From Acidobacteriota bacterium (lineage in GTDB: Bacteria; Acidobacteriota; Vicinamibacteria; Vicinamibacterales; CAVVIG01): a stretch of 64,000 nucleotides of DNA. A program made the position numbers and the translations under genes. The DNA is taken from assembly GCA_003222395.1 (NCBI GenBank), contig QHWB01000035.1, forward strand, positions 186,001 to 250,000, in the 5' to 3' direction. A model generated the notes under the pieces. The model did no database searches. It was given only the letters and a program-made list of their open reading frames with translations, and was not told the origin of the DNA. Within the stretch, counting starts at the first letter, position 1, and the number at the start of each line of letters is the position of its first letter. This document shows, piece after piece, positions 6,686 to 39,008 of the stretch.

Positions 6686-6692
6686 CCACAGC

Positions 6693-6810
6693 GTAGCGCG
6701 AGCCTTTTAGGCGAGCGTCGCGGCTCGGCTGACCGTGTCGCTCGGCGACGGTCTGGCGGCTGACGGAATGGCTCGGCTGAAAGCTCGCTCGGCTAAAAGC
6801 CTCGCGCTAC
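6693..6810. repeat. Family-1 mini-hairpin repeats, inverted pair between convergent genes
   Basis: A forward copy at 6693-6717 (GCGCGAGCCTTTTAGGCGAGCG) and an inverted copy at 6786-6810 flank about 68 nt. The forward copy has stem GCCT/AGGC and the inverted copy, read on its own strand, has GGCT/AGCC, so the stem is kept by paired changes. The two copies can also pair with each other to form a large hairpin, which could act as a terminator between the convergent TonB receptor and phosphoesterase genes. The inverted copy supplies the TAG stop codon (6807-6809) of the minus-strand gene. Confidence 0.85.
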
Positions 6811-13822: not shown

Positions 13823-14276
13823 CCGGCTGCTGTACAAAATCATCCCGCCGCTGAAGGCCGGCATGGTCGTCCTGGCGGATCGCTACGCCTACACCGCGTT
13901 CGCGCGCGATGCCACGCGGGGCGTCGATCGGCAATGGGTCCGCGAGCTGTACAGCTTCGCGGTGCGTCCCGACCTCTCGCTTTACTTTCGCGTCCCCATC
14001 GACGTGTCTGTCGACCGGCTCCTGGCGCGTCGCATGAAGCTCAAGTTTTACGAGGCAGGCATGGACTTGGGATGGAGCACCAGCCCGGTCGAGAGCTTCA
14101 AGCTGTTTCAGGGCAAGGTGCTGGAGGAGTACGATCATCTGGTGCAGGAATTCGGCCTGCAGGTGATCGAGGCCGCCGGCAGCATTACGGATCAGCAGCG
14201 GCTGGTCCGTATGCTGGTTTCGCAGCAGGTCCAGATGACCCGCAGCGTCGAAATGAGCGATGACGAATCCATCTGA
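13575..14276 (+). CDS. Thymidylate-kinase-like P-loop kinase, copy 1
   Basis: A 233-residue P-loop protein of the thymidylate kinase fold. I start at ATG 13575 (MLNNLTQPHEYPGKLFVVEG), just after the recognisable end of Ppx. The Walker A motif is intact (GIDGSGKTTQ, about residues 19-28) and the DR motif is ADRYAYTAFARDATRG. The REPGGT-type motif expected after the P-loop in true dTMP kinases is missing; VTEWNSSALVK occupies the place. It may therefore act on something other than dTMP. Position behind ppx, and the structural kinship of PPK2 polyphosphate kinases with thymidylate kinase, make a polyphosphate or nucleotide role plausible. Confidence 0.8.
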   Translation: MLNNLTQPHEYPGKLFVVEGIDGSGKTTQLALLAKWLSAEGHRVFVTEWNSSALVKAATKTGKKKNALTPMTFSLLHATDFADRLLYKIIPPLKAGMVVLADRYAYTAFARDATRGVDRQWVRELYSFAVRPDLSLYFRVPIDVSVDRLLARRMKLKFYEAGMDLGWSTSPVESFKLFQGKVLEEYDHLVQEFGLQVIEAAGSITDQQRLVRMLVSQQVQMTRSVEMSDDESI

Positions 14277-15033
14277 CGCATCCGCGTCGGAGCAGCCCGG
14301 CGCCAACGGCCAGAGCCTGGCCGGGCGGTATTACGGCCGGTCCATACCCTACCTTCCGATCGACGGCTATCCGGGGAAGCTCTTCGTGGTGGAAGGGACA
14401 GACGGCGTCGGCCGGTCCACGCAGATCCAGCTGCTTCGTGAATGGCTCGAGGTGAAAGGCTACGGCGTCGTCGAAACCGGCTGGACGCGTTCGCCTCTGA
14501 TGCAGCCGACGATTGAGATCGCCAAATCGAGCAACACGCTGAACAAGCTGACGTTCGTACTGCTGTACGCGACCGACTTCGCCGATCGGCTGGAGAAGGA
14601 GATCATCCCGGCGCTGAAAGCCGGTTTCGTGGTGCTGTCGGATCGCTACATCTTTACCGCGCTCGCGCGCGCCGGCGTCCGCGGCGTCGATCGCCAGTGG
14701 CTACGGAACCTTTATGGCTTTGCGATCGCGCCGCACATCGTGTTCTACCTGAACATCGACGTGAAGACGCTGAGCCGGCGCGTCCTCGAATCGCGCGGGA
14801 TGGACTTCTGGGAATCGGGGATGGATCTGAAGACCGGCGACGACATCTACGACAGCTTCCGCGCGTATCAACGAAGCCTGCTGCGCGAATACAGCTCGAT
14901 GGCCGACGAGTTCCACTTCCGTGTCGTCGACGCCCGACGCTCCATCGATCGGATCCAGGACGAACTGCGCCGCCAGGTGGCCGCGTACCTCGAACCCGCA
15001 GAGAAGCCCACGGAACCAGCCTTAGCACGATAA
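14260..15033 (+). CDS. Thymidylate-kinase-like protein, copy 2, with altered Walker A
   Basis: A 257-residue paralogue of the preceding protein; the genes overlap by 17 nt. It adds about 35 residues at the N-terminus (MTNPSDASASEQPGANGQSL..) before the shared YPGKLFVVEG. The Walker A loop reads GTDGVGRSTQ, so the lysine that normally binds the nucleotide phosphates is arginine. The DR motif (SDRYIFTALARAGVRGVDRQ) and the C-terminal half are well conserved with copy 1. Copy 1 as the active subunit and copy 2 as a regulatory or substrate-binding partner is one reading; Arg-tolerant activity is another. No REPG motif here either. Confidence 0.8.
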   Translation: MTNPSDASASEQPGANGQSLAGRYYGRSIPYLPIDGYPGKLFVVEGTDGVGRSTQIQLLREWLEVKGYGVVETGWTRSPLMQPTIEIAKSSNTLNKLTFVLLYATDFADRLEKEIIPALKAGFVVLSDRYIFTALARAGVRGVDRQWLRNLYGFAIAPHIVFYLNIDVKTLSRRVLESRGMDFWESGMDLKTGDDIYDSFRAYQRSLLREYSSMADEFHFRVVDARRSIDRIQDELRRQVAAYLEPAEKPTEPALAR

Positions 15034-15334: not shown

Positions 15335-17890
15335 TCAGAACCGATACCGGAGCGACACCTGCGCCGTGCGCGGCGCACGCGCGATGTTCGCGCGGCCGAA
15401 CAGCGGCGATGTGATCACTCCGACGTACGTCGTCGGGTTGACGCGATCGAACGCGTTGAACAGATCGATTGTCAGCTCCAGATTGTCGGTCTGCTCACGT
15501 TTCGCTGACTGGGGATCTTCGGACGGCGGTCGCGGCGCGCGGAAGACTGTGGTAAACCGCAAATCGAGTTGCGCGAACGCCGGCCCGCTCCCGGTATTTC
15601 GTCCGACACCTTCGGGGCGATCGTTGACGACGAGATCGTGATTGGTATCGCTGCCGAGCGTGATGTTGAACGGCGCGCCGCTGTACGCCGTCAGGACGGC
15701 GCCGAGCCGAAGTCGATCCTTCTTCCATCCATACGTCCCTGCGACGTTCAGCCTGTGACGGCGGTCGAAATCTGCCCGGCCGCGCTCGCCGGCCATGGTG
15801 ACGCTGTCGGCCGGCAGAGCGAACACGCCCGACGCATCGTCAATGCTCTTCGAGAGCGTGTACTGCGCCGTGCCGCGGAACGCCGCGAATCGGCCTCTGA
15901 ACGTGACCGTCACCGCGTCGGTGCGGCTCTCGCCGGTCGACTGGATTTCGAAGACGTTCAGCCGCGACGGATCGGGACGCTGGAGCGATCCGGGCAACGG
16001 GGCGTTCACGTCGCGCGCGCGAAACACGTGCGCGGTCCGCAGAAGGAGGTATTCCGCGGTCACGGTGCTCCGCCCGCCGATCGGCCGCTCCACGCTCGCG
16101 CTCGCCTGCGCCGTTCGTGGCAATTCCAGCGAATTGGCGAGCGTCCACTGCGCTGCCGGACCGCCTGCCATCGCGCCGGCTGGCGGCGGCACCGGGTACG
16201 ACGGATTGGTCATCGCCATCTCGCGCAGACCCGTTGGACCGAAGAGCAGCGATCGCCCGAGCGCTTCCTGCGGGAGCGACTGGTAGAACAGCCCGACGCC
16301 GCTCCGGATTACGGTTCGGCCGCCGCCCGGCGCGAACGCCACGGTGATTCGCGGCGCGACATTGTTCCGGTCCGCGACGTGCCGCTCGATGTCGTACCGA
16401 ACGCCGGCCGTCACGCCCACCGAGCCCGTCGGCCTGAAGTTCGTCTCGGCGAAGACGTCGGCCTCGACATCGCTGAAGGCGACCTCGCTCGGACCACTGC
16501 GGCGCGAGAAAAGGAACGGCCTGCCGAGCGACACGTCGGCGAGCGACTGAAACCGATAGATGCCACCGAAGTTGCTCGCATCGCCCGCGTCGCCCCAGCG
16601 CGACTTGACGCGTCCGCCGATGCGGACCGGGTGAGCCGCAACGGTCAACGCCAACGTATCCTGCGCCTGGAACGTCGTCGATCGGTTGCTCGACGCTTCC
16701 TGCGCAGGACCGCCGACGAACGCGCCGGCGACGATCAGCGCCGGCGACTGTGCCGGTCGGCCATCGTCGCGCCGCGTATTCGCGCCCTCGACGCGGAAAT
16801 CGTTCAGCCCGCCGCCGACAACGCGGTGGTCGTTGACCTGGATGCGGTGCCGCCGCTCGATCGTCTGGTACGCCTGCTCGGCGAGGCGAAACCCGCCGAC
16901 GCCGCGATTTCGCTCGGTGTCGTCGAACAGGTCGTAGCGCAGCGTCACCGCGTCGGTCTGGTTGTGGCGGAAATCGACGCGTCCGAGAACGGTGCTGCGG
17001 CGCTCCGGCGTCGCGACGTTCTGCGACACGGGGCCGGCCGGCGTGCGCGCGTTGACGATGGCGCTGTCGTCGTCGATGAGGTGCTGGGCGCTGACGAAGA
17101 ACGACCACGCCTTCGCGAGAAGCGGACCGCCGAGCGTCCCTTCGTTCAACGCGCGCGTAAGATCGGGCTTCGAAGCGGCGAAGGCGTTGGTCGCCTGCAG
17201 CGCGGAGTCGTGGAAGAACACCGCTCCGCTGCCGTGATAGAAACGGCGCGATCCACGCTCCGTTTCGACCTCGACGCGCGCCTTTCCCGGGCTCTTGAAC
17301 TCGACGGAGTACGGATTCCGATTGATCACGAGGCGGTGGATCGCGGAGGCGGGCACTGCGGCGCTGTCGGTCTCCACGCCGTCGACGACAAGGGAGACGC
17401 CGCCGGTCGGCGACGCGGCGGTGAAATTGTCCACGATCGCCTTGAGATCCTGCGCGTCGGTCGGCAGCCGGCGAATCGTCTCCGGATCGAGCTCGAACGC
17501 GTCGGCATTCTTCGTCGGCGCGAGCACGCTGCCCGACGCCTCCGCCGACACAGTGACCTCCTCGTCGAAGCCGATCTTCAACCGAATCGTGAGCGGTTCG
17601 CGCGCGTCGCCAACGGTGACGCGCATGTCCGCCGGCAGGAATCCGGCCAGCTCGACGTGAATCGTCGCGGCGCCGGGAAGCACATTCGGAAACATGAAGG
17701 TGCCGGTCGGACCGGTCGTCGCCTCGCGCGGCGCGCCGCCCGGCGCCGATGCGAGGACCACCATTGCGCCCGGCAGCGCGCCTCCCGAGTCGTCGACGAC
17801 GATTCCTTGCATCGTGACGGCCTGCGCGCGCGCGATCGCCGGAACGGCGAGGATCGACGCCGCGAGAAGACTTGCTTCGAGCCGTTTCAC
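15335..17890 (-). CDS. TonB-dependent receptor with carboxypeptidase-regulatory domain
   Basis: Predicted 851-residue outer-membrane receptor, last gene of the glycan operon. I start at GTG 17888-17890 (VKRLEASLLAASILAVPAIA), preceded by GAGGTG and overlapping the deacetylase stop as GTGA. After the signal peptide comes a carboxypeptidase-regulatory sandwich (about 24-110: MQGIVVDDSGGALPGAMVVL). A plug-like region follows (KAIVDNFTAASPTGGVSLVV), then a barrel ending in RTAQVSLRYRF with a terminal aromatic. It is shorter than the first receptor in this window. Translational coupling to the deacetylase suggests it handles the same polymer or a fragment of it, possibly retrieval or surface docking. 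Confidence 0.88.
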   Translation of the reverse strand: MKRLEASLLAASILAVPAIARAQAVTMQGIVVDDSGGALPGAMVVLASAPGGAPREATTGPTGTFMFPNVLPGAATIHVELAGFLPADMRVTVGDAREPLTIRLKIGFDEEVTVSAEASGSVLAPTKNADAFELDPETIRRLPTDAQDLKAIVDNFTAASPTGGVSLVVDGVETDSAAVPASAIHRLVINRNPYSVEFKSPGKARVEVETERGSRRFYHGSGAVFFHDSALQATNAFAASKPDLTRALNEGTLGGPLLAKAWSFFVSAQHLIDDDSAIVNARTPAGPVSQNVATPERRSTVLGRVDFRHNQTDAVTLRYDLFDDTERNRGVGGFRLAEQAYQTIERRHRIQVNDHRVVGGGLNDFRVEGANTRRDDGRPAQSPALIVAGAFVGGPAQEASSNRSTTFQAQDTLALTVAAHPVRIGGRVKSRWGDAGDASNFGGIYRFQSLADVSLGRPFLFSRRSGPSEVAFSDVEADVFAETNFRPTGSVGVTAGVRYDIERHVADRNNVAPRITVAFAPGGGRTVIRSGVGLFYQSLPQEALGRSLLFGPTGLREMAMTNPSYPVPPPAGAMAGGPAAQWTLANSLELPRTAQASASVERPIGGRSTVTAEYLLLRTAHVFRARDVNAPLPGSLQRPDPSRLNVFEIQSTGESRTDAVTVTFRGRFAAFRGTAQYTLSKSIDDASGVFALPADSVTMAGERGRADFDRRHRLNVAGTYGWKKDRLRLGAVLTAYSGAPFNITLGSDTNHDLVVNDRPEGVGRNTGSGPAFAQLDLRFTTVFRAPRPPSEDPQSAKREQTDNLELTIDLFNAFDRVNPTTYVGVITSPLFGRANIARAPRTAQVSLRYRF

Positions 17891-18642
17891 ACCACACCTC
17901 GAGCGGATGTACAACTTCCCATCGCAGCCATCGAGCTGAATTTCACCGCGCCGTGACCGGTAAGCAGTCGAAGAAGCTCGTCGAGCAACGTCCGATCCTC
18001 GCGCGTCATCACCGCGTGATGGAGCATCAATCCGACCGGCGCGGAGGCAGCGCGAAGGCGGGCGGCGATCGCGTCGCCCCACGCATCGGGGCCAGCCGCC
18101 ACGCCGCGTCGTCCGGTCCAGTCGAGATGAATGGGGAGCTCGCGGATCCCGTCGAAGCCAAACGTCTCCGCGTCCGCGTCGCGAGAGAGCATCTCGAATC
18201 CGAGCGCAGCCAGGCACGCGGCCGTCACGGCGGTGCAGCGATTCCACGGCGGCGTGAAAATCGGATCGACGGCCGCTCCCAATAGAGCGTGCAGGCGTCG
18301 CTGTCCGGCATGGATGTCGTCCCATTGTTCGGCGACCGACCGCGACCGACCGAACTCGCTCTTCCGGCCCGCGGCCTCGTGGTTGACGTGGGTTCGGCCG
18401 TGCTGATGGACGGCGACGAGCTCGCCGCACATGGTGAGTTGCCACAGCTCGCGCGCCAGCGCCGCGTCGACGGCGTCCGGAATGACGGCGAGATCGACCG
18501 GCACGCCGTGGCGCCGCGTCACGTCGAGCAGACGATACAGACGCTCGTTGTTCCAGCCGCCGTCGTCGTCGCGGATGAACATCGCGATCGGCGATGTGCG
18601 CTGATCGAGGGCCGCGCGGACCGGATCAAGCCAGGCCGTCAT
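17887..18642 (-). CDS. Polysaccharide deacetylase-like protein
   Basis: A 251-residue NodB-fold protein. The first motif is AMFIRDDDGGWNNERLYRLL with clustered aspartates. The metal-site region is VAVHQHGRTHVNHE, and PIFTPPWNRCT resembles the third motif of the family. LPIHLDW and VGLMLHHAVM supply the late histidines. No signal peptide is seen, so a cytoplasmic or inner-leaflet action on a glycan precursor is likelier than cell-wall work. It overlaps the upstream glycosyltransferase by 4 nt (ATGA) and the receptor gene by 4 nt (GTGA). De-N-acetylation of a sugar in the product is the expected chemistry. Confidence 0.83.
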   Translation of the reverse strand: MTAWLDPVRAALDQRTSPIAMFIRDDDGGWNNERLYRLLDVTRRHGVPVDLAVIPDAVDAALARELWQLTMCGELVAVHQHGRTHVNHEAAGRKSEFGRSRSVAEQWDDIHAGQRRLHALLGAAVDPIFTPPWNRCTAVTAACLAALGFEMLSRDADAETFGFDGIRELPIHLDWTGRRGVAAGPDAWGDAIAARLRAASAPVGLMLHHAVMTREDRTLLDELLRLLTGHGAVKFSSMAAMGSCTSARGVV

Positions 18643-19841
18643 ACGTGGGGCGGCCCTTCCAGGGACGCCGACGCGGGCCTGAAAGGCCCGCGCCACTTTT
18701 CCTCGAGCGCGACGCGCAGCATGGTGCTGGTGCGTTCGGCGCCGTTCATATCGAGCTCCGTCGGGGCCGGCGAGAAGCGCATGACGTCGCGAATCGCCTC
18801 CGCGAGCGCACCGCTCTCGAGCGACCCGCGGAACATACGGACCGCATTGAGCCGCTCGAGCCGCTGCGCGCGGTCGGTTTGCTCGCTGTCGCCGTTGTCG
18901 TTGAACGGCACGACCAGCGCCGGCACGGCCGCGCGAACGATGTCGAGCGCGGTGTTGTAGCCGCACTGGCTGACGGACACAGCGGCGCGGCGCATCGCTT
19001 CGCACAGATCCGCAACGGTGCGCCACACGTCGATCGATTGGCGGCGTCCGGCCGCTTCCCGCACGCGCGCGTACGCGTCGTCGGGACACAAGGGGCCGGC
19101 GACGATCGTCATCGGCGGCGCGGTCGATCCGAGGCGATCGTGCGCGTCGATCGCACACAGATACAGGCGCTCGGCGAAGCGGCCGCCACCGCCCGACACG
19201 AGGATGCCGTCTCCGTGCGCGATCGACACGCCGGCCGGCGCCCCGGGAACGACGAAGCCGGTGTGGCAGACCGGCTTCGTCAAACGGTGCGTCGGCCGAA
19301 ACGTCTCGTCGAGGGTCGCGAATCGAGGGTCCGTGTGGACGAGCACGAGGTCGAAGTACGCATCGACGAGCTCGCGCGCCCGGTCGTCGTGCTTCTGCTG
19401 GTCCGCGCCTCGGCCGACGAGCAGATCGCGCACGCTGGTCGCGACGATCGGCCGCGGCGATCGCCGCGTCTCGTCGAGCAGGGCAATCAACTCCTCCTTG
19501 AATTTGCGGCGGCCGAACGGAAACAACTCGATGACGACGACCGCCGGTCGAACCTGCAGGTACGTTTGAACGAGAAGACGCGTGCGTTCACGGCGGACGT
19601 CTTCGAGCGAGTCGGCGCCGTTCAACACGACGATCTCTCCGTCGGCATCCTGCGCGAGCGGCGGAAGCTCGATGACGTCGATGCCCTTCGGCGGTGCGAG
19701 GCCGCCGGGCGGCGCGCCGCCGCTGACGAGGATGACCCAGAATTCCGACGACAGCCGTTCGGCGAGCGCCCAGCAGCGCTTCAGATGTCCGAGCCCGAGA
19801 GAATGCTGACAGTAGAGCAACAGCGTGGGCCGCGGCTTCAT
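18639..19841 (-). CDS. Glycosyltransferase, COG4671/MurG-like fold, copy 2
   Basis: A 400-residue GT-B type glycosyltransferase. The N-terminal Rossmann half starts PTLLLYCQHSLGLGHLKRCW, nearly the same opening as the first gene of this operon (VLLYSHDTFGLGNIRRTLLL). The C-terminal half has ILVSGGGGRFAERLY and the sugar-nucleotide site VSVSQCGYNTALDIVRAAVP. I start at ATG 19839-19841 because it overlaps the upstream stop by 4 nt. The last residues (KWRGPFRPASASLEG) are encoded by a family-1-like hairpin at 18671-18693, so the tail was probably rewritten by a repeat. Donor and acceptor unknown. Confidence 0.85.
   Translation of the reverse strand: MKPRPTLLLYCQHSLGLGHLKRCWALAERLSSEFWVILVSGGAPPGGLAPPKGIDVIELPPLAQDADGEIVVLNGADSLEDVRRERTRLLVQTYLQVRPAVVVIELFPFGRRKFKEELIALLDETRRSPRPIVATSVRDLLVGRGADQQKHDDRARELVDAYFDLVLVHTDPRFATLDETFRPTHRLTKPVCHTGFVVPGAPAGVSIAHGDGILVSGGGGRFAERLYLCAIDAHDRLGSTAPPMTIVAGPLCPDDAYARVREAAGRRQSIDVWRTVADLCEAMRRAAVSVSQCGYNTALDIVRAAVPALVVPFNDNGDSEQTDRAQRLERLNAVRMFRGSLESGALAEAIRDVMRFSPAPTELDMNGAERTSTMLRVALEEKWRGPFRPASASLEGPPHV
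18671..18693 (-). repeat. Family-1-like hairpin inside the end of a glycosyltransferase gene
   Basis: On the minus strand the stretch reads GCGGGCCT-TTC-AGGCCCGC, a perfect 8-bp stem with the TTC loop of family 1. The GA/GA internal mismatch seen in ordinary family-1 copies is here GG/CC, that is, fully paired. It lies in frame and encodes part of the C-terminal tail of the glycosyltransferase. Confidence 0.7.
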
Positions 19842-21133
19842 TGGATTTCCACCGGAAAATCGAGCAGCCGTTCGGAGGTCGAGAGGAGCGCCGGCAAGTG
19901 CTCGAGGCCGAGCGGCCGGATGCGCGTCACGGCGCGCGTGGCGCGCTCGACGAGCAGCGCCGCAGCCGTGTGCCACTGGATTGAGGAGGTCGCCGGCAAA
20001 CGGCGAACCGCCTCGTAGCCCCCGAAGAATGCCTGGACGCGGACGCGGTATGCCTCACGCGAGAGCCGGCCTGTTTCGCGGCGGTACACGAGGCTCGCGA
20101 GCAGACTGCCGATGTCGGCCGCCGCCGCGCCGAGAGCGACGTCCTCGACGTCGATCAAGGTCACACGATCCCCGCACACGATCGCGTTCTTCGGATGCAG
20201 ATCGCCGTGCAGGCACACGGCCCCGGCGTCAGGCACGGCGGCGGCGATGAGCCGGGCGGCCAGATGCTCCACTGCATTCGACACGTCGGGACGGATCGTG
20301 CGGATGATCGCGGCGTCGTCTCGAAGATGCGCCGGCGAAAAGCGATCGAGCGGCGGCGCGTGCGGCACCGAAAGACGGTGAAACGCCGCGACGGCGGCGC
20401 CGAACCGTTCGAGATCGGCAATCTCGACAATCTCGTCGTCGGCCGCCGTTTCGGCCATTCGTCTGCCGTGGACCGCTTCGAGCCAGAGGGTTCTGTGCGC
20501 CGCCGAATATTCGAGCGCGCAGGGCAGCCGCAGCCGCGGATCGCGCGGATCCAACCGCGCGTGCAGGCTCGCGTACGTGTCGTAGTCGCGCGAGGCCTGC
20601 TGCGCCGCCGCGACCTTCGCGTACGCGAGGGGGATCCCGTCGACGCCTTCGCAGACGAGCGTCGCCGATTTCTCAGGTGCGTACGCGACGAGCCGTCGGC
20701 GAATCTCGCGTCCGGTCTCGACGCCCGGCACCGGCGTTGCCGGATCGAGCACCGCGGCGAGCGTATGGATCTTGCGATCGTTCGGCACGACCCAAAATAC
20801 GGACCCGAGGTCGTCGGCCAGTGCGACACCGCTGAGCGGTCCCACGTTGCGCGCGCTGCCGAGCGAGCGCTGATACGCATCGAGGCTTTTCGCCCCGCGG
20901 AACATCCGCGCGGCGACGGTGTAGAACGCGCCATCCGTCTCGATACGAAACTGCGCGCGCAGGCTTCGCCCGACCTGGTAGTTCACGCGGATCAGCGAGC
21001 ACGAGTCGATCCGCACGAGCGCTGCCGCGCCGAGCCGCGACAGAACCGGTCGCATCGATGCGGCGTCGAGCAGGATGTCGCGGTGCGGCAGCGCCTGATC
21101 GGGCGCGAGAGCGGTTGATGTCGGCGCGATCAT
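19838..21133 (-). CDS. APH-fold phosphotransferase (aminoglycoside phosphotransferase family)
   Basis: A 431-residue kinase-like protein. The Brenner catalytic motif is VCLHGDLHPKNAIV (about residues 320-333) and the metal-binding acidic motif is LIDVEDVALGAAAADIG, both classical for APH/choline kinase folds. The N-terminal lobe is about 150 residues longer than in drug-modifying enzymes. It starts at ATG 21131-21133, overlapping the heparinase stop by 4 nt, and its stop overlaps the next glycosyltransferase by 4 nt. In this setting it more likely phosphorylates a sugar or glycan precursor than an antibiotic, although self-protection against a glycosylated product cannot be excluded. Confidence 0.83.
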   Translation of the reverse strand: MIAPTSTALAPDQALPHRDILLDAASMRPVLSRLGAAALVRIDSCSLIRVNYQVGRSLRAQFRIETDGAFYTVAARMFRGAKSLDAYQRSLGSARNVGPLSGVALADDLGSVFWVVPNDRKIHTLAAVLDPATPVPGVETGREIRRRLVAYAPEKSATLVCEGVDGIPLAYAKVAAAQQASRDYDTYASLHARLDPRDPRLRLPCALEYSAAHRTLWLEAVHGRRMAETAADDEIVEIADLERFGAAVAAFHRLSVPHAPPLDRFSPAHLRDDAAIIRTIRPDVSNAVEHLAARLIAAAVPDAGAVCLHGDLHPKNAIVCGDRVTLIDVEDVALGAAAADIGSLLASLVYRRETGRLSREAYRVRVQAFFGGYEAVRRLPATSSIQWHTAAALLVERATRAVTRIRPLGLEHLPALLSTSERLLDFPVEIQ

Positions 21134-23052
21134 CGATCCGCTCCCTCGCTCGCGGTCGGGCCGCCGAGCACAACGTCCACGACGTCGGCCGACGTCAGCA
21201 TGACTTCCTGCGGTGAGCTCGCGCTGGAACATCGAGTCCAGGACGCAATCGCGACGCCCGCGCCGCCACCAATCGGCCGCGCCGTGCCGTCGAGCGTCCA
21301 CGCAATCCGATCGTGAATGCCGCGATTCGACCCGCACGTGACGTCGGCGACCGCAAGCGGCGCATCGAACCGAACGTGGAGATCGGGCGGCGGCTCGCTG
21401 TCCGGGCCCACCGGCGCGACCAGCGTGACGAACCGTGTGCGGCCGGCGCCGTCGCGCCTGAACGAGACGACCGGCGCGGCGCGCTTGACGCCGTACTCCG
21501 CCGATACCCACCCGGATTCGACGCGCGCGTTTGCGTCGCCGGCGAAGATCAGCGAGACCCGCGGCGTGAGCGCCCGCCAGCCAGTCGGTGTGATGTCCAG
21601 CGCGATGATCCGCTGGTCCGACGTGAGATGAAATCGAAGGTCATAGCGATGAACGCCGTCGGCGTCGAGCTCGTCTTCGATCAACCAGTATTCGTTGGCA
21701 ACGAACAGAATCCGACGCCGGTGGATCACGCCGTACAGCGGTGACTCGACCTCGCCCCACAGCAGATCCAGCGCGGCTCCGGTCGCCCGTTGACGCAGCC
21801 GCGCGCGCGCCACGTCGCCCTTTGGTTTTCCACGGCGATACGGCGTCTGGTCGAGACCGTCGACTGTGACCGTGTTGTGCGCCGCGGTCGTTTTGAACCA
21901 CCGTCGCCAATGCGGCGGATCGTCGCAGTACGTGTAGCGCCCCGGATCGATCACCAACGGCGCATCTTGCGCCGCAATCTCGACGTTGAGCGCGTCGTAG
22001 TGTCCATGTCCGCCGTCGCCAATCGCACCGCAGTCGAAGATCAGGTACCGCTCGTCCGTGATCGCGCGCGTATCGCCACCCCATCCGCTTCGCTGGATGA
22101 AGTACCCGCCGTCGGGAAAGCTCGCCGAGGTCGATCGAGGCCGCTCGCCGCGGCGGCCGCGCGTCGCGACGTACGTGAAGTCCGTCCGTTGGAACAGCTC
22201 GCCCGCGGCTTCGAGCAAGTCCAGATAGCTCCCGCTGTCGCTGTCCGACAATGCGGGGATCGAGCCGTCCGGCCTGTGGCAGTGAAGAGAGAACGCGCAG
22301 GCGCGCTCGACGCGGGCGTCAAAGCCGCCCGGCAGCGACATGCCAAATCGCCGTGCGTTCACCAGCAGGCCGACGAACGATCGCAGCACGACGTGGTGGT
22401 AATGCGTCGATCGCTCTCGCTGAACGCCGTCGGGCAGCACGTCGGCGACGAGATTCTCGTAAAGAGCGTCGACCGCGAATCGCAGAAGGCCCCGGTCGAC
22501 GTCGATGTCGGGCAGCGCGAGCGCCGCGATGAACAACGCATACAGCTCGAGCGTGCGGTGGTTGCGTTCGCGCGTGAGATGTTGCCGGAGATATGCGACC
22601 TGCGCCTGAAGGCTGGCAGCGACGCGCGCCTCGAAACCCGCCCCGCTCGATTCGAGATCGACGCAGTCGGCGAAGCGGCTCCATGCGTACACCCAGTTCT
22701 GGATGCGACGGCCGATCACGTCGCTCGGATCGTGGTCGATCGGGACCTGCGCAATCCACGAATCGACGAGCCGCTGCCATGCGACCGCGTACTTGCCGTG
22801 ACCTGTCTCTTCGGTGGCTGTCGCGAGATCGAGGCCGTAATAGAACTTGCTCCATTCGAGCCGCCACTCACGATCGGCGGGAAGCATCGCCCCGATCCAG
22901 TCCGGCTCGGCGCCGAGCTCGATCGTCCTGCCCTGAATTGGAAAGCGTCCGGAGACGATCTCGTCGGCCACCGCGCGGCTGCGGTATTTGTGCTCGAACA
23001 CGCAGAACACGCGGCGCGGCGCGGCCGTGGCCACCGACGATTCACGCACCAT
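21130..23052 (-). CDS. Heparinase II/III-family protein
   Basis: A 640-residue protein with the two-domain plan of heparinase II/III lyases: an N-terminal alpha/alpha toroid (to about 340, with RNHRTLELYALFIAALALPD and RSTHYHHVVLRSFVGLLVN) and a C-terminal beta-sheet domain (GAIGDGGHGHYDALNVEIAA, AAHNTVTVDGLDQTPY). The HGHYD segment and THYHH match the conserved His/Tyr positions of the family. No signal peptide is evident, unusual for a lyase that acts on extracellular polymers. Relatives inside biosynthetic operons may process polymer before export. It overlaps the ABC gene by 11 nt and the kinase gene by 4 nt. Confidence 0.87.
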   Translation of the reverse strand: MVRESSVATAAPRRVFCVFEHKYRSRAVADEIVSGRFPIQGRTIELGAEPDWIGAMLPADREWRLEWSKFYYGLDLATATEETGHGKYAVAWQRLVDSWIAQVPIDHDPSDVIGRRIQNWVYAWSRFADCVDLESSGAGFEARVAASLQAQVAYLRQHLTRERNHRTLELYALFIAALALPDIDVDRGLLRFAVDALYENLVADVLPDGVQRERSTHYHHVVLRSFVGLLVNARRFGMSLPGGFDARVERACAFSLHCHRPDGSIPALSDSDSGSYLDLLEAAGELFQRTDFTYVATRGRRGERPRSTSASFPDGGYFIQRSGWGGDTRAITDERYLIFDCGAIGDGGHGHYDALNVEIAAQDAPLVIDPGRYTYCDDPPHWRRWFKTTAAHNTVTVDGLDQTPYRRGKPKGDVARARLRQRATGAALDLLWGEVESPLYGVIHRRRILFVANEYWLIEDELDADGVHRYDLRFHLTSDQRIIALDITPTGWRALTPRVSLIFAGDANARVESGWVSAEYGVKRAAPVVSFRRDGAGRTRFVTLVAPVGPDSEPPPDLHVRFDAPLAVADVTCGSNRGIHDRIAWTLDGTARPIGGGAGVAIASWTRCSSASSPQEVMLTSADVVDVVLGGPTASEGADR

Positions 23053-24817
23053 GCGCCCCCTGTCCAGCGACCAGGCGAAGACCGGCGCCGCAGGCGACGA
23101 GCCGGCCGTCTTCGAGCCGGTAGACGACGTCCGCGTGGTCGAACAGCGACAACCGGTGCGTGATCGCGAGGCACGTGCGACCCTCGCGCATCCGCCCGAG
23201 CGCTGACGCGATCACCGCCTCCGAGTCGGCGTCGACATTCGACGTCGGCTCGTCGAGCAGCAGGATCGGCCGATCGAGCAGCAGCGCGCGGGCGAGCGAC
23301 AGCCGCTGGCGTTGGCCGCCCGAAAGGTTCACACCGTCTTCACCGAGCATCGCGTCGAGCGTTCCGGGAATCGCGCGGACGAAATCCTCCATCGCGACGA
23401 ACGCGAGCGCCTTCCAGACGTCCTTGTCGGCCAGCTTTTCGCCCGTCGGCGTCAACGCCTCCCGCAGAGAACCGGCGAACAGATGCGTGTCCTGCGCCAT
23501 CAACGCGATCTGCTGCCGAAGCGATCGGACGGTGATGGATGGCAGCGGGCGCCCGTCGAGGAGGATTTGGCCCGACGTCGGATCGAACAACCGCACGAGG
23601 AGGCTGAGCAGCGTGCTCTTGCCGGCGCCGCTCGCGCCGACGAGCACCGCCAGCTCTCCGGGCACGAGCTTCAGATTCACTCCACGCAGGACCGGCGCAT
23701 GCCGCCGCCCCGCGTACTCGAAGCACACATCGCGCAGTTCGAGCAGTCCGCGCGATCGATCGATGGCGACCGCGTCCGGTCGGTCGTGAATCGCGGGACG
23801 CTGCTCGAGCAGCGCGAGCAGGCGCTCGCCGGCCGCCATGCCCTTCGATGTCGTTTCCGCGAGATCGTTGAGCCGCTCGACCGGCTTGAGCAGTTGTGTG
23901 AGATAGGACGCGAGCACCGTGAGCGCGCCGAGCGTCAACTGTCCTTTCAACACCAGCAGCGCGCCGCCCGCAATCAGGAGCGCGGTCGCGACGCCGTGCG
24001 CGAGGCGGATCGTTCGCTCCATCTGCGCGGCCACGCGCGTCTCCGCGACTCCCGCTTCGAGGCTGTTCGCGTTCAGGCGGCGGAATCGCTCCCGGGCGTG
24101 ATCGTTTCCGCCGAGCGCCTGAATCACCGGTAGACCGCGAACGATTTCCTGCGCGAGCGCGGCAACCTCGCCTTCGCGCCGCCGCCGCTCCCTCGACGCG
24201 CGGCCCAGGCGCGCACCGTACACCCGAACGATCGCCGCCAGCGCCGGGAGCAGCACGACCGCAAACACGGCGAGCGCCGGCTGCAGCCACAGCATCAGCG
24301 CGAGCGTCGCCGCCGTCGTCAGCACCGATTCCACGATCGTGGGAACCGTCCGCGCCTGGAACCTCACGAACTGATCGACGTCGCCGACGAGGCGAAGTGC
24401 CAGCTCGCCGCTGCGGTGGGTGGTCCGGATCGTCGGCGGGAGCAGCTGCAGGTGCACGAGCATCCGATCGCGCACCTCGACGTTCAGCCGCTCCCGGAAC
24501 CGCGCGCTGCGGCTCGCGTGCTGCAGCTCGACGAGCGCGCGCAGCGCGGCGATGCCGACGATCGCCGCCGCCATCGCGATCACGAGCGCTTCCGGAGAGG
24601 CATTGCCAAGGCCAACGGCGCCAAGCGCGCCAGGCAGCCGTCGCCGCGACAGCACGTTGTCGATGATCACCTTCAGCGGCCACGGCGCGGCGAGGCCGAG
24701 CACGACGCCGGCAACGCGAAACGCGTACGCCGACGCGAGCAGCCGCCGGTGCTCGAGCGCAATCGGCGCCGACCAGCGCATCACGTCGCGCCACGTGCGT
24801 CCGGTGCGCCGGGTCAC
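23042..24817 (-). CDS. ABC exporter with fused membrane and ATPase domains
   Basis: A 591-residue half-transporter of the MsbA/exporter type, working as a dimer. An N-terminal membrane domain with about six segments (LKVIIDNVLS .. GVATALLIAGGALLVLKGQL) occupies residues 1-330. The ATPase has Walker A VGASGAGKSTLLSLL, the Q-loop QQIALMAQDTHLFAGSLREAL, the signature NLSGGQRQRLSLARALLLDR and Walker B ILLLDEPTSNVDADS, followed by the H-loop AITHRLS. I start at GTG 24815-24817, which overlaps the upstream stop as GTGA and has CAGGAGAG before it. Presumed to move the glycan or its lipid-linked precursor across the inner membrane. Confidence 0.92.
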   Translation of the reverse strand: MTRRTGRTWRDVMRWSAPIALEHRRLLASAYAFRVAGVVLGLAAPWPLKVIIDNVLSRRRLPGALGAVGLGNASPEALVIAMAAAIVGIAALRALVELQHASRSARFRERLNVEVRDRMLVHLQLLPPTIRTTHRSGELALRLVGDVDQFVRFQARTVPTIVESVLTTAATLALMLWLQPALAVFAVVLLPALAAIVRVYGARLGRASRERRRREGEVAALAQEIVRGLPVIQALGGNDHARERFRRLNANSLEAGVAETRVAAQMERTIRLAHGVATALLIAGGALLVLKGQLTLGALTVLASYLTQLLKPVERLNDLAETTSKGMAAGERLLALLEQRPAIHDRPDAVAIDRSRGLLELRDVCFEYAGRRHAPVLRGVNLKLVPGELAVLVGASGAGKSTLLSLLVRLFDPTSGQILLDGRPLPSITVRSLRQQIALMAQDTHLFAGSLREALTPTGEKLADKDVWKALAFVAMEDFVRAIPGTLDAMLGEDGVNLSGGQRQRLSLARALLLDRPILLLDEPTSNVDADSEAVIASALGRMREGRTCLAITHRLSLFDHADVVYRLEDGRLVACGAGLRLVAGQGAHGA

Positions 24818-26121
24818 GCGACTCTCCTGAACAGCGTGAAAAGCTCGCCGATCAGCCGATCGCCGTCGAATCGCTCCGCGACGACCGAACGCGCGTTGAC
24901 CGCGAGGCGCGCCGCAAGGCCGGCATCGCGATGGATCCGAAGCAGCGCGTCGGCCACGCCGCGTACGTCGCCGGGCGCGACCAGCAGGCCGTTGACGCCG
25001 TGCTCGACGAGCTCTGGAATTCCGCTCACGTTCGTCGTGACGACCGGCAGACCGCTGGCCATCGCTTCGACGAGCACGTTCGGAATGCCGTCGCGATCGC
25101 CGTCGTCGCTGACGCGGCACGGGAGGCAGAACGCGGTCGCGGTGCGGTACGCGCGCAGCAGGTCGTCCTGCGACATCGGACCGTGCAGGGCCACGCGACG
25201 ATCGAGCCCGCGGGAACGAATCATCGCCGCGATTTCGTCCGTCTGGTCGTCCATCTCTCCGATGATCGACGCCTCCAGCGCAACGCCGCGCCCGACCAGG
25301 TCCGCACACGCTGCGACGAGCACGTCGAAGCCTTTCTTGTTCACGTGGCGACCGACGGCGACGATGCGGAGTACCTGCGACGGCGCACGGCGATCGATCG
25401 AGGCGAGCTCGCGTTTCATCAGGTTCGCGAATTCGGCGTTCAACCCGTGGTACACGCGAAACACGGGTGTATTGCCCGCGAACTGCTGAAGGAACGTACG
25501 GTTTGCTTCCGTGCACGTGACCGCGAAGCGCGCCGCGGCGAGCTTGCGCCGGAGCAGGCCGGCAGGATTGAGAGACGGCGTGTACAGGTCCTTCGCATGA
25601 GCGGTGAACGAGAACGTCCGGGCCGACATCATCGCCGCCAGCCATGCAACGGTCGCCGCACCGTGGCAGAAGTGAGCGTGCAGATGCCGCACCTCCGGCG
25701 AGTCGCGGAGGCGATCGGCCAGGGCGACCGCTTGCAGGAATTCCTTCGCGTACACCTTGCGCGGCGCGGACCAGACGCCGTCGCGGGCGCGCACGGCCTG
25801 CGCGAACGCGGCGAGCGCCGCCCGAACGACACCGCGCGGCCACCGGATCAGCGTTCTGCGAAGCGCCGGCAGGAACAGCGGAAGATGTGTGCGCAGCCAC
25901 CGATGGAGTGGCGTTCCGGAAACCGAAGCCGTCTGCGGCAGATACTCCGGCGCCGCGTGGATGCGGTCCACGATCGGGTGACGGAGTCCATCGTCTCCGG
26001 ACTTGATCACGAACAGTCGAAGTCGGAGTCCCGCCCGCTCGAGACGGTGGATCTCGCTTGCGATGAACAGCTCGGAGAGACGTGGATAGCCTTTGACGAC
26101 GTAGGCGACGTGCTCACGCAT
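24814..26121 (-). CDS. Glycosyltransferase family 4 type, copy 1
   Basis: A 435-residue GT-B glycosyltransferase starting at ATG 26119-26121 (MREHVAYVVKGYPRLSELFI). The opening KGYPRLSELFIASEI is typical of colanic-acid/exopolysaccharide transferases such as WcaL. The catalytic half has VAVGRHVNKKGFDVLVAACA and the donor-site ExxxxxxxxxE stretch VLVEAMASGLPVVTTNVSGIPELVEHG. It overlaps the neighbour by 8 nt upstream and the ABC exporter gene by 4 nt. Sugar donor and linkage cannot be told. Confidence 0.9.
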   Translation of the reverse strand: MREHVAYVVKGYPRLSELFIASEIHRLERAGLRLRLFVIKSGDDGLRHPIVDRIHAAPEYLPQTASVSGTPLHRWLRTHLPLFLPALRRTLIRWPRGVVRAALAAFAQAVRARDGVWSAPRKVYAKEFLQAVALADRLRDSPEVRHLHAHFCHGAATVAWLAAMMSARTFSFTAHAKDLYTPSLNPAGLLRRKLAAARFAVTCTEANRTFLQQFAGNTPVFRVYHGLNAEFANLMKRELASIDRRAPSQVLRIVAVGRHVNKKGFDVLVAACADLVGRGVALEASIIGEMDDQTDEIAAMIRSRGLDRRVALHGPMSQDDLLRAYRTATAFCLPCRVSDDGDRDGIPNVLVEAMASGLPVVTTNVSGIPELVEHGVNGLLVAPGDVRGVADALLRIHRDAGLAARLAVNARSVVAERFDGDRLIGELFTLFRRVA

Positions 26122-27187
26122 ACGCGTCTCCGAGCACCGACGCGAGCCTGCGCGTGCAGCACCGGTCGTCGAACTCGCGCAGCGCGACATGGCGGCCGGC
26201 CGCGCCGAGACGCTGACGCGCGTCGGGACTGGACGCCACCTCCGTCAGCGCCGCCGCCAGCGCCGGCGCGTCGGCGGTGGGCACGAGCAAACCCGTGACG
26301 CCATGACGGACGGCCGAACCGATGGCGCCCATGTCGGCCGCCACCACCGCCACGCCGCTCGCCATCGCCTCGAGGACGACGTTGGGCAGGCCGTCGCGAT
26401 CGCCGGCGCGATCGCAGACCGAGGGGATGACGACCACGTCTGCACGCGCATATTCGTACGGAAGCGCGTCGTGGGTCGCCGCGCCGCAGAACGTGACGTT
26501 GTCGGCGACGCCGAGCGCGCGCGCCTGCGCCTCGAGGCGATCGCCCTCCGGTCCTTCGCCGATGATGCGCAGGCGCCACGGCACCCGAAGCATCGACAGC
26601 GCGTCGAGCAGCACGTGAAACCCTTTCTTCTCCACCAGCCGTCCGACGGCAAGCATGTTCAGAACGCCGGTGGGCGATCGCCGTTCGCCGGTGAACCGCC
26701 GCACGTCGACGCCGTGCGGCACCAGATCGACGCGCGCGCCGCTGCCGTCGAACTCGGCGGCGACGTCGGCATTGCACGCGACGACGCAGGCGGCGCGGCG
26801 CGCCCGATCGTGCAGCTCCGTCCGATCGACTTTCCGCGCGTCACGGGCGTGCACGCTGAAGCCGAACGGCACGCCCAGCGCGCGCGCCAGATCGGACGCG
26901 ACAACGGCCGGGGTGTGCGCGAAGTACGCGTGCACGCCCGAGATCCGCGTCGCGTCGAGCCGCCGTCTGGCGTCGGCGGCCTGTTCCGCCGGCGGGCCCA
27001 ACAACTGGCGTACGCGGTGACGGAGGCTGCGTACTGCCGGCTGCGCCGGCCCGTCTTCACCCGGCTTCGTGCTGAACACTGCGGCGAGCATGCCCCGGTC
27101 GTCGAGCGCGGCGAGCTCTGCGAGAGCAAACGTTTCCGACCGGCGCGGAAAGCCGCTCACGATGACCGCGAGCCGGGGCGGCCTCAT
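26114..27187 (-). CDS. Glycosyltransferase family 4 type, copy 2
   Basis: A 357-residue GT-B glycosyltransferase, opening RLAVIVSGFPRRSETFALAE, the same SFP..SETF pattern as copy 1 but a shorter protein. The donor-binding half shows LAVGRLVEKKGFHVLLDAL and VVLEAMASGVAVVAADMGAI with a conserved Glu pair. It begins at ATG 27185-27187, overlapping the first gene's stop by 4 nt. The two family-4 enzymes are clearly paralogous and probably add successive sugars to the same chain. Confidence 0.9.
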   Translation of the reverse strand: MRPPRLAVIVSGFPRRSETFALAELAALDDRGMLAAVFSTKPGEDGPAQPAVRSLRHRVRQLLGPPAEQAADARRRLDATRISGVHAYFAHTPAVVASDLARALGVPFGFSVHARDARKVDRTELHDRARRAACVVACNADVAAEFDGSGARVDLVPHGVDVRRFTGERRSPTGVLNMLAVGRLVEKKGFHVLLDALSMLRVPWRLRIIGEGPEGDRLEAQARALGVADNVTFCGAATHDALPYEYARADVVVIPSVCDRAGDRDGLPNVVLEAMASGVAVVAADMGAIGSAVRHGVTGLLVPTADAPALAAALTEVASSPDARQRLGAAGRHVALREFDDRCCTRRLASVLGDAYA

Positions 27188-28404
27188 GGCGTGACGGTCC
27201 CGAGCAGCGCAGCGACGCGCTGCTGAATACGCGGGAGCCCGTCGAGATCGACGGGAACGTGCGCCGGCGGCCGTGCGAGGCTGCGCCGGACCGCTTCGAT
27301 CAGACGGTCGGGCCGGAGCGCGTCGGGCTCGACAATGTCGAACAGGCCGCGCGCGGCCAGCAGCCGCGCGCGCAGCAGCTGCTCGGCCACAGGCCGGCTC
27401 CGCGGAACCAGCACGGCTCGTACGGCCGTCGACAGCAGCTCGCACACGGTGTTGTACCCGGCCATGCAGACCACGACATCGGCCCACGCGTAGCGGCTCG
27501 AGAGATCGGGATCGAAATCGAGGAACGTGACGTCGGCGATCGCGCCGAACCGCGTCAGCAATCGCTGCTGGTCGCTCGCCGCCATCTGCGGACCGAATAC
27601 GATCGTCGTGCGGAGGGCGACGCTCCGTGGTAACGCGATCAGCCCCTCGAGGTACGTTTCGATCAGCTCGGTGCCGTCTTCGCCGCCGCCGGTCGTGACG
27701 AGGACGCGCGGCGGGCCGTCGTGCGGCTCGATGCGGCGCGTCGGCCGTTTCAGGTAGCCGCAGAAGCGCGTCTTCTGCGCGACCTCCGACGGGAACCTGT
27801 ACTCCGCAACCGCGTCGAAAATCGACCGCTCCCCATAAATCCAGACCTCGTCGTAGTAGCGCGCGATCGTCCGCATGTCGCGCGCGCGCCTCAACGACAG
27901 GCGCGTCGGCGCCGGCGCGTCCAGGATGTCGCGAATGCCGAGCACAACCTTCGCCGCCGGATGCGTGCGGCGGAGCGACTTCAGCGGCTCGAGGAGCTCG
28001 CCGCCGATGCCCGCCGCGCGCTTGTCGACGATCATCAAATCCGGAGCGAAGCCCAGCACGGCGCGTTCGAGAACGCCGCGCCGCATGTCGGCGACTTCCG
28101 CGCGCTCCGTGCTCAGGTATGTCGGCTCGTACCGGTCCGCGTCGGACCTCGTCAGGCACGGCAGCTTGATGTAGTCCGTGCACGGCGGGATGCGGAAGGC
28201 GTGAATCATCGGCGATCCGGTCACGATGAGGAGCGACGCCGAGGGATACGCCTGGCCGAGCGCTTCGGCGAGCAGGAGCGTGCGGCGGATGTTGCCGAGG
28301 CCGAAGGTGTCGTGCGAGTACAGCAGGACCTTCGGCGCCGGCGACGCCGCGCGGTGCGGTTTCAGGTCGCGATCGACGATGGCAGCGTTCATCGGGTTAC
28401 GCAT
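27184..28404 (-). CDS. Glycosyltransferase, COG4671/MurG-like fold, copy 1
   Basis: A 406-residue GT-B protein and the first gene of the nine-gene operon. VLLYSHDTFGLGNIRRTLLL gives the N-terminal glycine-rich loop and VVCMAGYNTVCELLSTAVRA the sugar-nucleotide site. RVLVTTGGGEDGTELIETYL matches the equivalent place in copy 2. I use ATG 28402-28404; the in-frame ATG at 28390-28392 (MNAAIVDRDLKPH) is as likely, and neither has a good ribosome binding site. Having two such enzymes at different points in one operon suggests distinct steps of assembly. Confidence 0.87.
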   Translation of the reverse strand: MRNPMNAAIVDRDLKPHRAASPAPKVLLYSHDTFGLGNIRRTLLLAEALGQAYPSASLLIVTGSPMIHAFRIPPCTDYIKLPCLTRSDADRYEPTYLSTERAEVADMRRGVLERAVLGFAPDLMIVDKRAAGIGGELLEPLKSLRRTHPAAKVVLGIRDILDAPAPTRLSLRRARDMRTIARYYDEVWIYGERSIFDAVAEYRFPSEVAQKTRFCGYLKRPTRRIEPHDGPPRVLVTTGGGEDGTELIETYLEGLIALPRSVALRTTIVFGPQMAASDQQRLLTRFGAIADVTFLDFDPDLSSRYAWADVVVCMAGYNTVCELLSTAVRAVLVPRSRPVAEQLLRARLLAARGLFDIVEPDALRPDRLIEAVRRSLARPPAHVPVDLDGLPRIQQRVAALLGTVTP

Positions 28405-38993: not shown

Positions 38994-39008
38994 AAGTGCC
39001 TCCGGCAA

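Follow-up and report, generated by a model that had tools for sequence, protein, structure and literature searches.

What product could be made by nine overlapping genes of an acidobacterium that encode four glycosyltransferases, an ABC exporter, a heparinase-like enzyme, a kinase, a deacetylase and an outer-membrane barrel? The window, that is, the whole 64,000-nt stretch of DNA that was analysed, carries this set on its minus strand. Our answer, to which we give a probability of about 0.6, is that an acidic surface oligo- or polysaccharide, probably one that contains uronic acid, is assembled and modified in the cytosol by the products of this operon and then exported by them.

Layout and recurrence of the gene set

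When the reading frames were checked, all nine genes were open from 28404 down to 15335, and they are listed below with their profile matches.

27184..28404, minus strand: gene 1, GT28a, GT28/MurG-like glycosyltransferase (PF04101, E 1.7e-13)
26114..27187, minus strand: gene 2, GT4a glycosyltransferase (PF00534, E 3.1e-36); overlaps gene 1 by 4 nt
24814..26121, minus strand: gene 3, GT4b glycosyltransferase (PF13692, E 2.3e-33); overlaps gene 2 by 8 nt
23042..24817, minus strand: gene 4, one-chain MsbA-type ABC exporter (PF00664 and PF00005)
21130..23052, minus strand: gene 5, cytosolic heparinase II/III-like enzyme, predicted lyase or uronate C5-epimerase (PF07940, E 1.3e-42; PF16889, E 3.8e-27)
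19838..21133, minus strand: gene 6, APH-fold kinase (PF01636, E 8.6e-17)
18639..19841, minus strand: gene 7, GT28b, second GT28/MurG-like glycosyltransferase (PF04101, E 7.7e-8)
17887..18642, minus strand: gene 8, cytosolic NodB/CE4-like deacetylase (conserved motif residues; PF10096, DUF2334, below cut-off)
15335..17890, minus strand: gene 9, Oar-type outer-membrane barrel with a shortened plug, proposed glycan exit (PF13620, CarboxypepD_reg, and PF25183, OMP_b-brl_4); overlaps gene 8 by 4 nt

If the best start codons are taken, the overlaps at the eight junctions from gene 1 to gene 9 are 4, 8, 4, 11, 4, 4, 4 and 4 nt, that of genes 4 and 5 being 8 nt instead of 11 if gene 5 starts at a GTG. 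An earlier note on this DNA had described a nine-gene operon with overlaps of 4-11 nt, and this held at all eight junctions, as did its family annotations against Pfam and NCBIfam profiles. It had also stated that standard capsule and O-antigen markers are absent, and indeed Pfam reported no Wzx, Wzy, Wza/Wzc, KpsM/KpsT or priming-transferase domain among the nine proteins; neither a lipid carrier nor a polymerase was identified among them by Pfam. ARAGORN placed a tRNA-Ser within gene 1 (27322-27397), which had no Rfam support at the gathering threshold and was taken as a false positive.

Related clusters were found in other Acidobacteriota, in Parvularcula and on Candidatus Manganitrophus plasmids. 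In locus L031 the seven visible genes have the same order as in the window, with 50-74% identity, and L084 has genes 1-8 in window order, an unassigned interval of about 1.3 kb separating gene 6 from gene 7. Rearranged or partial sets are present in L033, L034, L035 and L083 (Acidobacteriota), L032 (Parvularcula) and L040 (Ca. Manganitrophus), and a heparinase-free core of GT28-GT4-GT28 in the eight alphaproteobacterial loci that were read. The search over Acidobacteriota and other phyla that the earlier note had called for showed that the set recurs; that it does so with unchanged gene order in L031 and L084 argues that it is more than a chance assembly. The gene order of the relatives was taken from tblastn, as the simple gene caller put starts in the wrong place and overlooked genes or set them on the wrong strand (e.g. 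in L034, L035 and L084); the four Manganitrophus records are represented by two that were read (L040, L041) and one that was searched (L040), and all tallies exclude L091 (G026), which has two GT28a-like, two GT4b-like, ABC and APH-like matches. In the Parvularcula class, clusters of the heparinase type are uncommon: at E 1e-80 only 1 of 385 genomes matched, this being the source of the query itself. Phage records gave one weak match. A narrow search of the open-access literature found no paper describing the gene set, which agrees with the earlier statement that no characterised pathway is known to have it; PMC5498481 describes another pSymB cluster, nodP2-smb21248.

Proposed assembly and modification of the chain

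In the order of reactions that we propose, the chain would be built by the two GT28-type and two GT4-type glycosyltransferases, with the carrier supplied from elsewhere in the genome. Gene 1 gave weak NCBIfam matches to MurG and PssE, both below cut-off. Identity to counterparts in other loci, ten for each gene, is 32-72% for gene 1 and 29-62% for gene 7. Among PDB entries the GT28b profile matched MurG best, with natural-product glycosyltransferases matching weakly behind it. In L040, GT28b and the deacetylase are fused in one chain of 660 residues.

The deacetylase would then strip N-acetyl groups in the cytosol. In nine homologues of gene 8 the residues R24, D26, D27, H81, H85, P131-R135, D174, W175 and H208 are invariant, and these columns, assigned by eye, fit the five short CE4/NodB motifs (DD, HxxxH, R/W, D, H). 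Relatives of gene 8 are annotated as 'polysaccharide deacetylase family protein'. Its sole Pfam match is PF10096 (DUF2334) at 23.5 bits, under the cut-off of 26, and there was no match to PF01522, the Pfam deacetylase family; the L050 counterpart matched no Pfam family at E 0.01 and gene 8 matched no PDB entry at E 0.01.

Gene 5 is predicted from sequence to be a lyase or an epimerase, and it may abstract the C5 proton of a uronic acid in the cytosol, which would make it either an epimerase or a lyase that edits the chain. Its closest solved relatives are heparinase III and alginate lyases, a profile of seven orthologues matching heparinase III (4mmh) at E 3.4e-54. N164, Y218 and H349 are invariant in these orthologues and, in the 4mmh alignment read by eye, fall opposite the catalytic Asn, Tyr and His of heparinase III. 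A simple hydropathy scan found no signal-like stretch in the first 60 residues of gene 5 (best 15-residue mean 0.88, compared to 2.15 for the signal-like N-terminus of gene 9). Structure predictions from three-sequence alignments reached a pLDDT of 44.7 for gene 5 and 41.4 for gene 6, too low to be of use. The earlier note had considered a heparinase-like protein without a signal peptide to be odd in glycan synthesis, which was not borne out: of 23 heparinase loci from more distant Acidobacteriota (L008-L030), 10 have a GT4-like stretch no more than about 1.5 kb away, and another heparinase-like gene of the window's own genome (L135; G000:C98, ~116.6-120.3 kb) has two GT4-like genes within 10 kb.

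This leads to the question of which sugar would be modified. The operon itself has no UDP-sugar gene, and five dehydrogenase genes over cut-off are present elsewhere in the window's genome. A nucleotide-sugar dehydrogenase gene adjoins L032, and others occur in the DNA that was read from Mesorhizobium, two Sinorhizobium, Rhizobium and Sulfitobacter; the stretches from Azospirillum and Ruegeria showed none. The SDR epimerase genes of L088 and L090 both have as top PDB match 5u4q, named dTDP-glucose 4,6-dehydratase, and as second-best 6zl6, a UDP-glucuronate 4-epimerase. The glycan probably contains a uronic acid. It may or may not be of the GlcA type, since 5u4q ranks first for the epimerases and the L032 dehydrogenase best matches UDP-ManNAc-type enzymes.

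Proposed passage through the two membranes

Passage of the inner membrane would be through gene 4, in which ABC_membrane and ABC_tran lie on one chain, so that it is not a two-component exporter of the KpsMT or Wzm/Wzt kind. Its top NCBIfam match is TIGR02203, MsbA (E 4.1e-106, 356 bits, below the cut-off of 602). As MsbA is the nearest profile, the product may instead be a fixed-size glycolipid or lipid-linked oligosaccharide rather than a polymer, the exporter moving its lipid anchor, and the presence of four transferases with no recognised polymerase points the same way, as does the match of GT28b to MurG, the GT28 family including such lipid-acting enzymes. However, a lipid has no obvious need for a barrel of the alginate-export type, which is present in two relatives, and we regard this as a possible but less probable product.

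The APH-fold kinase would add phosphate to the glycan; by analogy with WbdD, this would most likely be a capping step that permits export. H309, G310, D311, N316 and D328 of gene 6 are kept in the window, L031 and L032, and H309, G310, D311 and D328 are invariant across eight homologues. The kinase gene adjoins the exporter gene in L032, L033 and L034, and a second kinase gene is present in 4 of 9 heparinase clusters (L033, L034, L035, L040). In the window's own genome, at L129, a single frame of 920 residues carries ABC_membrane, ABC_tran and APH domains and is separated by 76 nt from the paralogue most similar to gene 9. The APH profile matched antibiotic kinases weakly, the best match being amicoumacin kinase (E 1.7e-7), followed by maltokinase (E 2.2e-6). 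This match to an antibiotic kinase, together with the weak natural-product matches of GT28b, is what could be said for the suggestion, also made earlier, of a glycosylated antibiotic-like small molecule with export and kinase-based self-protection. We consider it very improbable, as Pfam found no scaffold gene either in the operon or among 19 further proteins of the window that were scanned, relatives are flanked by UDP-sugar genes and alginate-export barrels, and both the second kinases and the L129 fusion argue against it; the suggestion gained no positive support.

Final exit would be through gene 9. It had been annotated as a TonB receptor, and the presence of CarboxypepD_reg and a barrel domain places it by Pfam among Oar-type TonB-dependent transporters, but the Pfam Plug domain (PF07715) was not matched even when E values up to 1 were allowed, a setting at which HMMER filters discard most matches above about 0.1. 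The other Oar-like protein of the window (3422-6685) matched Plug at E 3.6e-7. A shortened plug-like stretch of gene 9 does align and carries a TonB-box-like motif, from which the barrel starts after 110 residues, compared to 124-144 in 20 of 29 own-genome matches. Of these 29, L100 and L119 are N-terminally cut by the alignment, L104, L107 and L112 are unaligned, L110, one of the 20, also lacks the motif end, and four paralogues (L094-L097) have a short plug like gene 9. Such a motif is compatible with uptake and secretion alike.

The terminal gene differs among the relatives. Of the 7 heparinase clusters in which the 3' side is visible, 6 have a gene for a barrel, or for what may be one, next on that side, and four Pfam families are represented: Alginate_exp (PF13372) in L032 and L040, the Oar type in the window and L035/L089 (and in the heparinase-free L088), a weak, below-cut-off match to a small barrel in L034/L090, and CBM9-DUF5916 in L084, DUF5916 being presumably a barrel. 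L083 has neither a barrel gene nor a deacetylase match within its 9.5 kb contig, no barrel gene adjoins the heparinase-free clusters L085, L086 and L087, PF13372 was not matched in the window's genome assembly at E 0.001, and no recognised glycan genes surround the short-plug paralogues of gene 9 in L130-L132.

TonB-dependent receptors usually import, and gene 9 could be an ordinary importer that takes breakdown products of the same glycan back up, to be degraded in the cell by the heparinase-like enzyme, making this a locus of synthesis and salvage. The TonB-box-like motif, the kinship of gene 5 to heparinase III and alginate lyases and a polysaccharide lyase gene (PF14099) near the Sinorhizobium meliloti counterpart are in keeping with this. 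It is nevertheless unlikely: by Pfam none of the nine proteins has a SusD, sulfatase or glycoside hydrolase domain, alginate-export barrels occupy the position of gene 9 in two relatives, and the paralogue most like gene 9 in its own genome adjoins another ABC exporter. Because relatives end in alginate-export or other barrels and this paralogue adjoins the ABC-APH fusion, export is favoured over uptake, and gene 9 is probably an exit gate and not an uptake pore. The coupling of a TonB receptor to the deacetylase, which the earlier note had found unusual, stands as regards the 4-nt overlap, and the role is better read as outer-membrane exit. A bolder version of the export reading, which we hold to be quite unlikely, is a mobile pathway in which the exporter-tied kinase licenses a heparan-like chain, made by cytosolic N-deacetylation and C5-epimerisation, and a TonB-energised short-plug Oar-type barrel secretes it in place of the alginate-type porin of the relatives.

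If the export scheme is true, a recurrent 'unknown glycan' gene set gains a concrete, testable scheme, cytosolic heparinase-like enzymes gain a role as modifying enzymes, and TonB-dependent transporters gain a candidate case as polysaccharide exporters. Parts of the scheme could be studied in common laboratory strains, since replicons of Sinorhizobium, Rhizobium and Ruegeria carry the heparinase-free core.

Comparison with known systems

Alginate biosynthesis and export (AlgE, AlgG, AlgL) resembles the operon in the PF13372 barrels of two related clusters, in the lyase-like protein and in a glycan that is probably acidic. It differs in that Pfam found no GT2 synthase or PilZ co-polymerase domain among the nine proteins, which have GT28 and GT4 transferases and an ABC exporter instead, and in that the operon's enzymes lack signal peptides and the lyase-like one resembles heparinase III, not AlgL or AlgG. 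The chitooligosaccharide deacetylase NodB is likewise small, cytosolic and encoded beside glycosyltransferases and an ABC exporter, but the nine proteins include no NodA-like acyltransferase and gene 8 has no PF01522 or PDB match. Heparinase III (4mmh, 5jmd), of polysaccharide lyase family 12 (PL12), is like gene 5 in sequence family and in its Asn, Tyr and His residues, whereas gene 5 has no signal peptide and sits in a biosynthetic operon.

A C5-epimerase of biosynthesis, human dermatan sulfate epimerase 1, has a structure resembling that of polysaccharide lyases, heparinases among them (PMC8006597), and its analogy to gene 5 would be one of mechanism only. E. coli O9a has ABC-dependent O-antigen assembly with the WbdD kinase (PMC3482155), and it resembles the operon in cytosolic assembly by glycosyltransferases and in a kinase beside an ABC exporter; methyltransferase genes in the rhizobial relatives of the operon are a further likeness. 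O9a, however, has Wzm/Wzt, whereas the operon has a one-chain MsbA-type exporter and an APH-family kinase, to which capping is ascribed by analogy. Finally, Oar of Myxococcus xanthus is a TonB-dependent transporter without which PopC is not secreted (PMC6434023). It has a Pfam Plug, which gene 9 does not show, and its cargo is a protein whereas that proposed for gene 9 is a glycan, but the two share CarboxypepD_reg and a TonB-dependent-receptor-like barrel, Oar has a TonB box and gene 9 a TonB-box-like motif, and the role of Oar in secretion parallels the one proposed here for gene 9.

Layout of the operon

The nine genes occupy 28404 to 15335 of the minus strand, as the earlier note had placed them, and its claim that all of them overlap was borne out when the best starts were used, the eight junctions overlapping by 4, 8, 4, 11, 4, 4, 4 and 4 nt.

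Genes of the operon and their families by Pfam and NCBIfam
Gene 1, minus: GT28-type transferase (GT28a)
Genes 2 and 3, minus: two GT4 transferases (GT4a, GT4b)
Gene 4, minus: one-chain ABC exporter, nearest to MsbA
Gene 5, minus: heparinase II/III, N and C domains
Gene 6, minus: APH kinase
Gene 7, minus: second GT28-type transferase (GT28b)
Gene 8, minus: small protein (putative deacetylase), DUF2334 match below cut-off
Gene 9, minus: Oar-like outer-membrane protein

In a simple hydropathy scan, gene 9 was the only one of the nine with an evident signal peptide, and membrane helices were present in the ABC exporter. A tRNA-Ser (gct) called by ARAGORN inside gene 1 (27322-27397, minus) was rejected, being without Rfam support. 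Elsewhere in the window, two tandem thymidylate-kinase-like genes (13479-14276 and 14260-15033, plus) lie directly behind a Ppx/GppA gene; the opposite strand carries genes for CHAD and histidine phosphatase proteins, and this locus is possibly related to polyphosphate rather than to nucleotide metabolism. The 1638-codon open frame at 34092-39008, minus, had no Pfam match at E 0.001.

Recurrence of the gene set and distribution of the heparinase

When genome contigs were scanned with the heparinase, two loci were found, L032 of Parvularcula and L031 of an acidobacterial metagenome genome, the contig of which is identical to one of G792. In L031 seven of the nine genes were seen in the window's order at 50-74% identity before the contig stops. 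A further cluster, L084, keeps that order for genes 1-8, with an unassigned stretch of about 1.3 kb separating gene 6 from gene 7, and subsets in altered order were found in L034/L090, L035/L089, L033, L032, L040 and L083. A second kinase gene is present in L033, L034, L035 and L040, and in L040, from a Manganitrophus plasmid, GT28b and the NodB-like deacetylase are fused in one chain (22510-24492, plus). In L041 (CP114554.1, a Candidatus Manganitrophus plasmid) the cluster is annotated as many short pieces, as if by decay or bad assembly; the genes are whole in L040.

A heparinase match at E 1e-30 was obtained in 27 of 396 Acidobacteriota genomes, that of the window included, and only the latter, G038, G009 and G275 exceeded 430 bits, the other matching genomes reaching at most 164 bits. 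With a seven-sequence profile at E 1e-60, three of 26 further same-family genomes matched (G792, G787, G794). Eight of 72,556 plasmid records matched, four being Candidatus Manganitrophus at 38-40% identity, and among 385 genomes of the Parvularcula class no match at E 1e-80 was found beyond L032's own genome. This patchy distribution suggests transfer or loss.

Heparinase-free clusters were also seen: GT28a, GT4b, GT28b, deacetylase and ABC exporter occur together in G235 (L086), and this set is present in part in G275 contig 38 (L085), G291 (L087) and G388 (L088). The GT28b profile matched 17 of 396 Acidobacteriota at E 1e-40, seven of these above 280 bits, and at E 1e-10 it matched 262 of 72,556 plasmid records, chiefly of Rhizobium and Sinorhizobium. 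All eight alphaproteobacterial loci read (L042-L044, L049-L053) have GT28a-, GT4b- and GT28b-like matches. In Sulfitobacter, Azospirillum and Ruegeria, GT28b lies between a histidine phosphatase gene and a deacetylase gene; a deacetylase is about 5 kb away in Mesorhizobium and was not found in the Sinorhizobium and Rhizobium stretches read. Pfam confirmed an ABC exporter domain at L042, L044 and L050, three of the eight, and in Ruegeria no ABC exporter was in view within the stretch read.

Gene 9 and the proteins that end the clusters

The 3' side was readable in seven of the nine heparinase clusters, L031 and L033 being cut, and in six of the seven the gene that follows directly has the same orientation and encodes an outer-membrane or possible outer-membrane protein. 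The exception is L083, where Ig-like and PASTA domains were found in the protein that comes next.

Proteins ending the heparinase clusters
Window: Oar-type gene 9, 4 nt overlap with the deacetylase gene
L089: Oar-type, overlapping the ABC gene by 4 nt
L032 and L040: Alginate_exp
L090: 321-residue protein, barrel matches below cut-off
L084: CBM9-DUF5916 protein, which we take to be a barrel

Among the heparinase-free clusters an Oar-type gene is present in L088, and no Oar-type or other barrel gene was seen beside the clusters L085, L086 and L087. Gene 9 is read as a putative exit rather than an uptake pore chiefly because different barrels share one position, and two of these belong to the alginate-export family.

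The plug of gene 9 is short. From a TonB-box-like motif to the barrel start there are 110 residues in gene 9, 114 and 109 in its counterparts in L089 and L088, and 104-113 in four paralogues of the window's own genome (L094-L097, within stretches L129-L132), against 124-144 in 20 of the 29 hits in that genome; two hits were cut and three unaligned. In L129 (G000:C34:268001-288000) a 920-residue open frame (6345-9107, minus), 76 nt from the closest gene 9 paralogue, encodes a complete MsbA-type ABC exporter joined to an APH-fold kinase domain, with genes for a further APH protein and for a GT2 protein nearby. Around the paralogues in L130-L132 no glycan genes were recognised by nine-gene BLAST and by eye, and thus the short-plug group, taken whole, is not a glycan-export group. 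A further single frame in L129 (11777-14446, minus) matches the C-terminal domain of glycosyl hydrolase family 2, followed by a GT2 domain, possibly a fusion, its start being predicted.

Enzymes and the systems they resemble

The top match of the seven-orthologue heparinase profile was heparinase III (4mmh, E 3.4e-54), and N164, Y218 and H349 of gene 5 are invariant and, read off the printed alignment, stand opposite the Asn, Tyr and His that we take, in identity and numbering, to be the catalytic residues of heparinase III. The deacetylase keeps DD, HxxxH, PPWNR, DW and HH, a set that reads like NodB/CE4 motifs; no Pfam deacetylase match was found for it. In the kinase, HGDLHxxN and a second Asp are kept in the window, L031 and L032, and H309, G310, D311 and D328 are invariant across eight homologues. 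For the epimerases of L088 and L090 the best match was 5u4q (named dTDP-glucose 4,6-dehydratase) and the second was 6zl6, presumably a UDP-glucuronate 4-epimerase, and the dehydrogenase adjoining L032 best matched a UDP-ManNAc-type dehydrogenase. From these matches it is likely that some UDP-sugar acid is involved.

The families, residues, recurrence and terminal barrels together point to a scheme in which a surface glycan, presumably acidic, is assembled, modified and exported, and to this we give a probability of about 0.6. Its models, WbdD, dermatan sulfate epimerase 1 and Oar, are drawn by analogy. A WbdD-type cap licenses export, and the gene 6 kinase would likewise phosphorylate the chain end. 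In an O antigen exported by an ABC transporter, polymerisation is stopped and the chain end phosphorylated by WbdD (PMC3482155). The heparinase-like gene 5 may be an epimerase in the manner of dermatan sulfate epimerase 1 of humans; that enzyme is a C5-epimerase and structurally resembles lyases of bacteria (PMC8006597). For a secretion role of gene 9 the precedent would be Oar of M. xanthus, a TonB-dependent transporter which is required for the secretion of PopC (PMC6434023).
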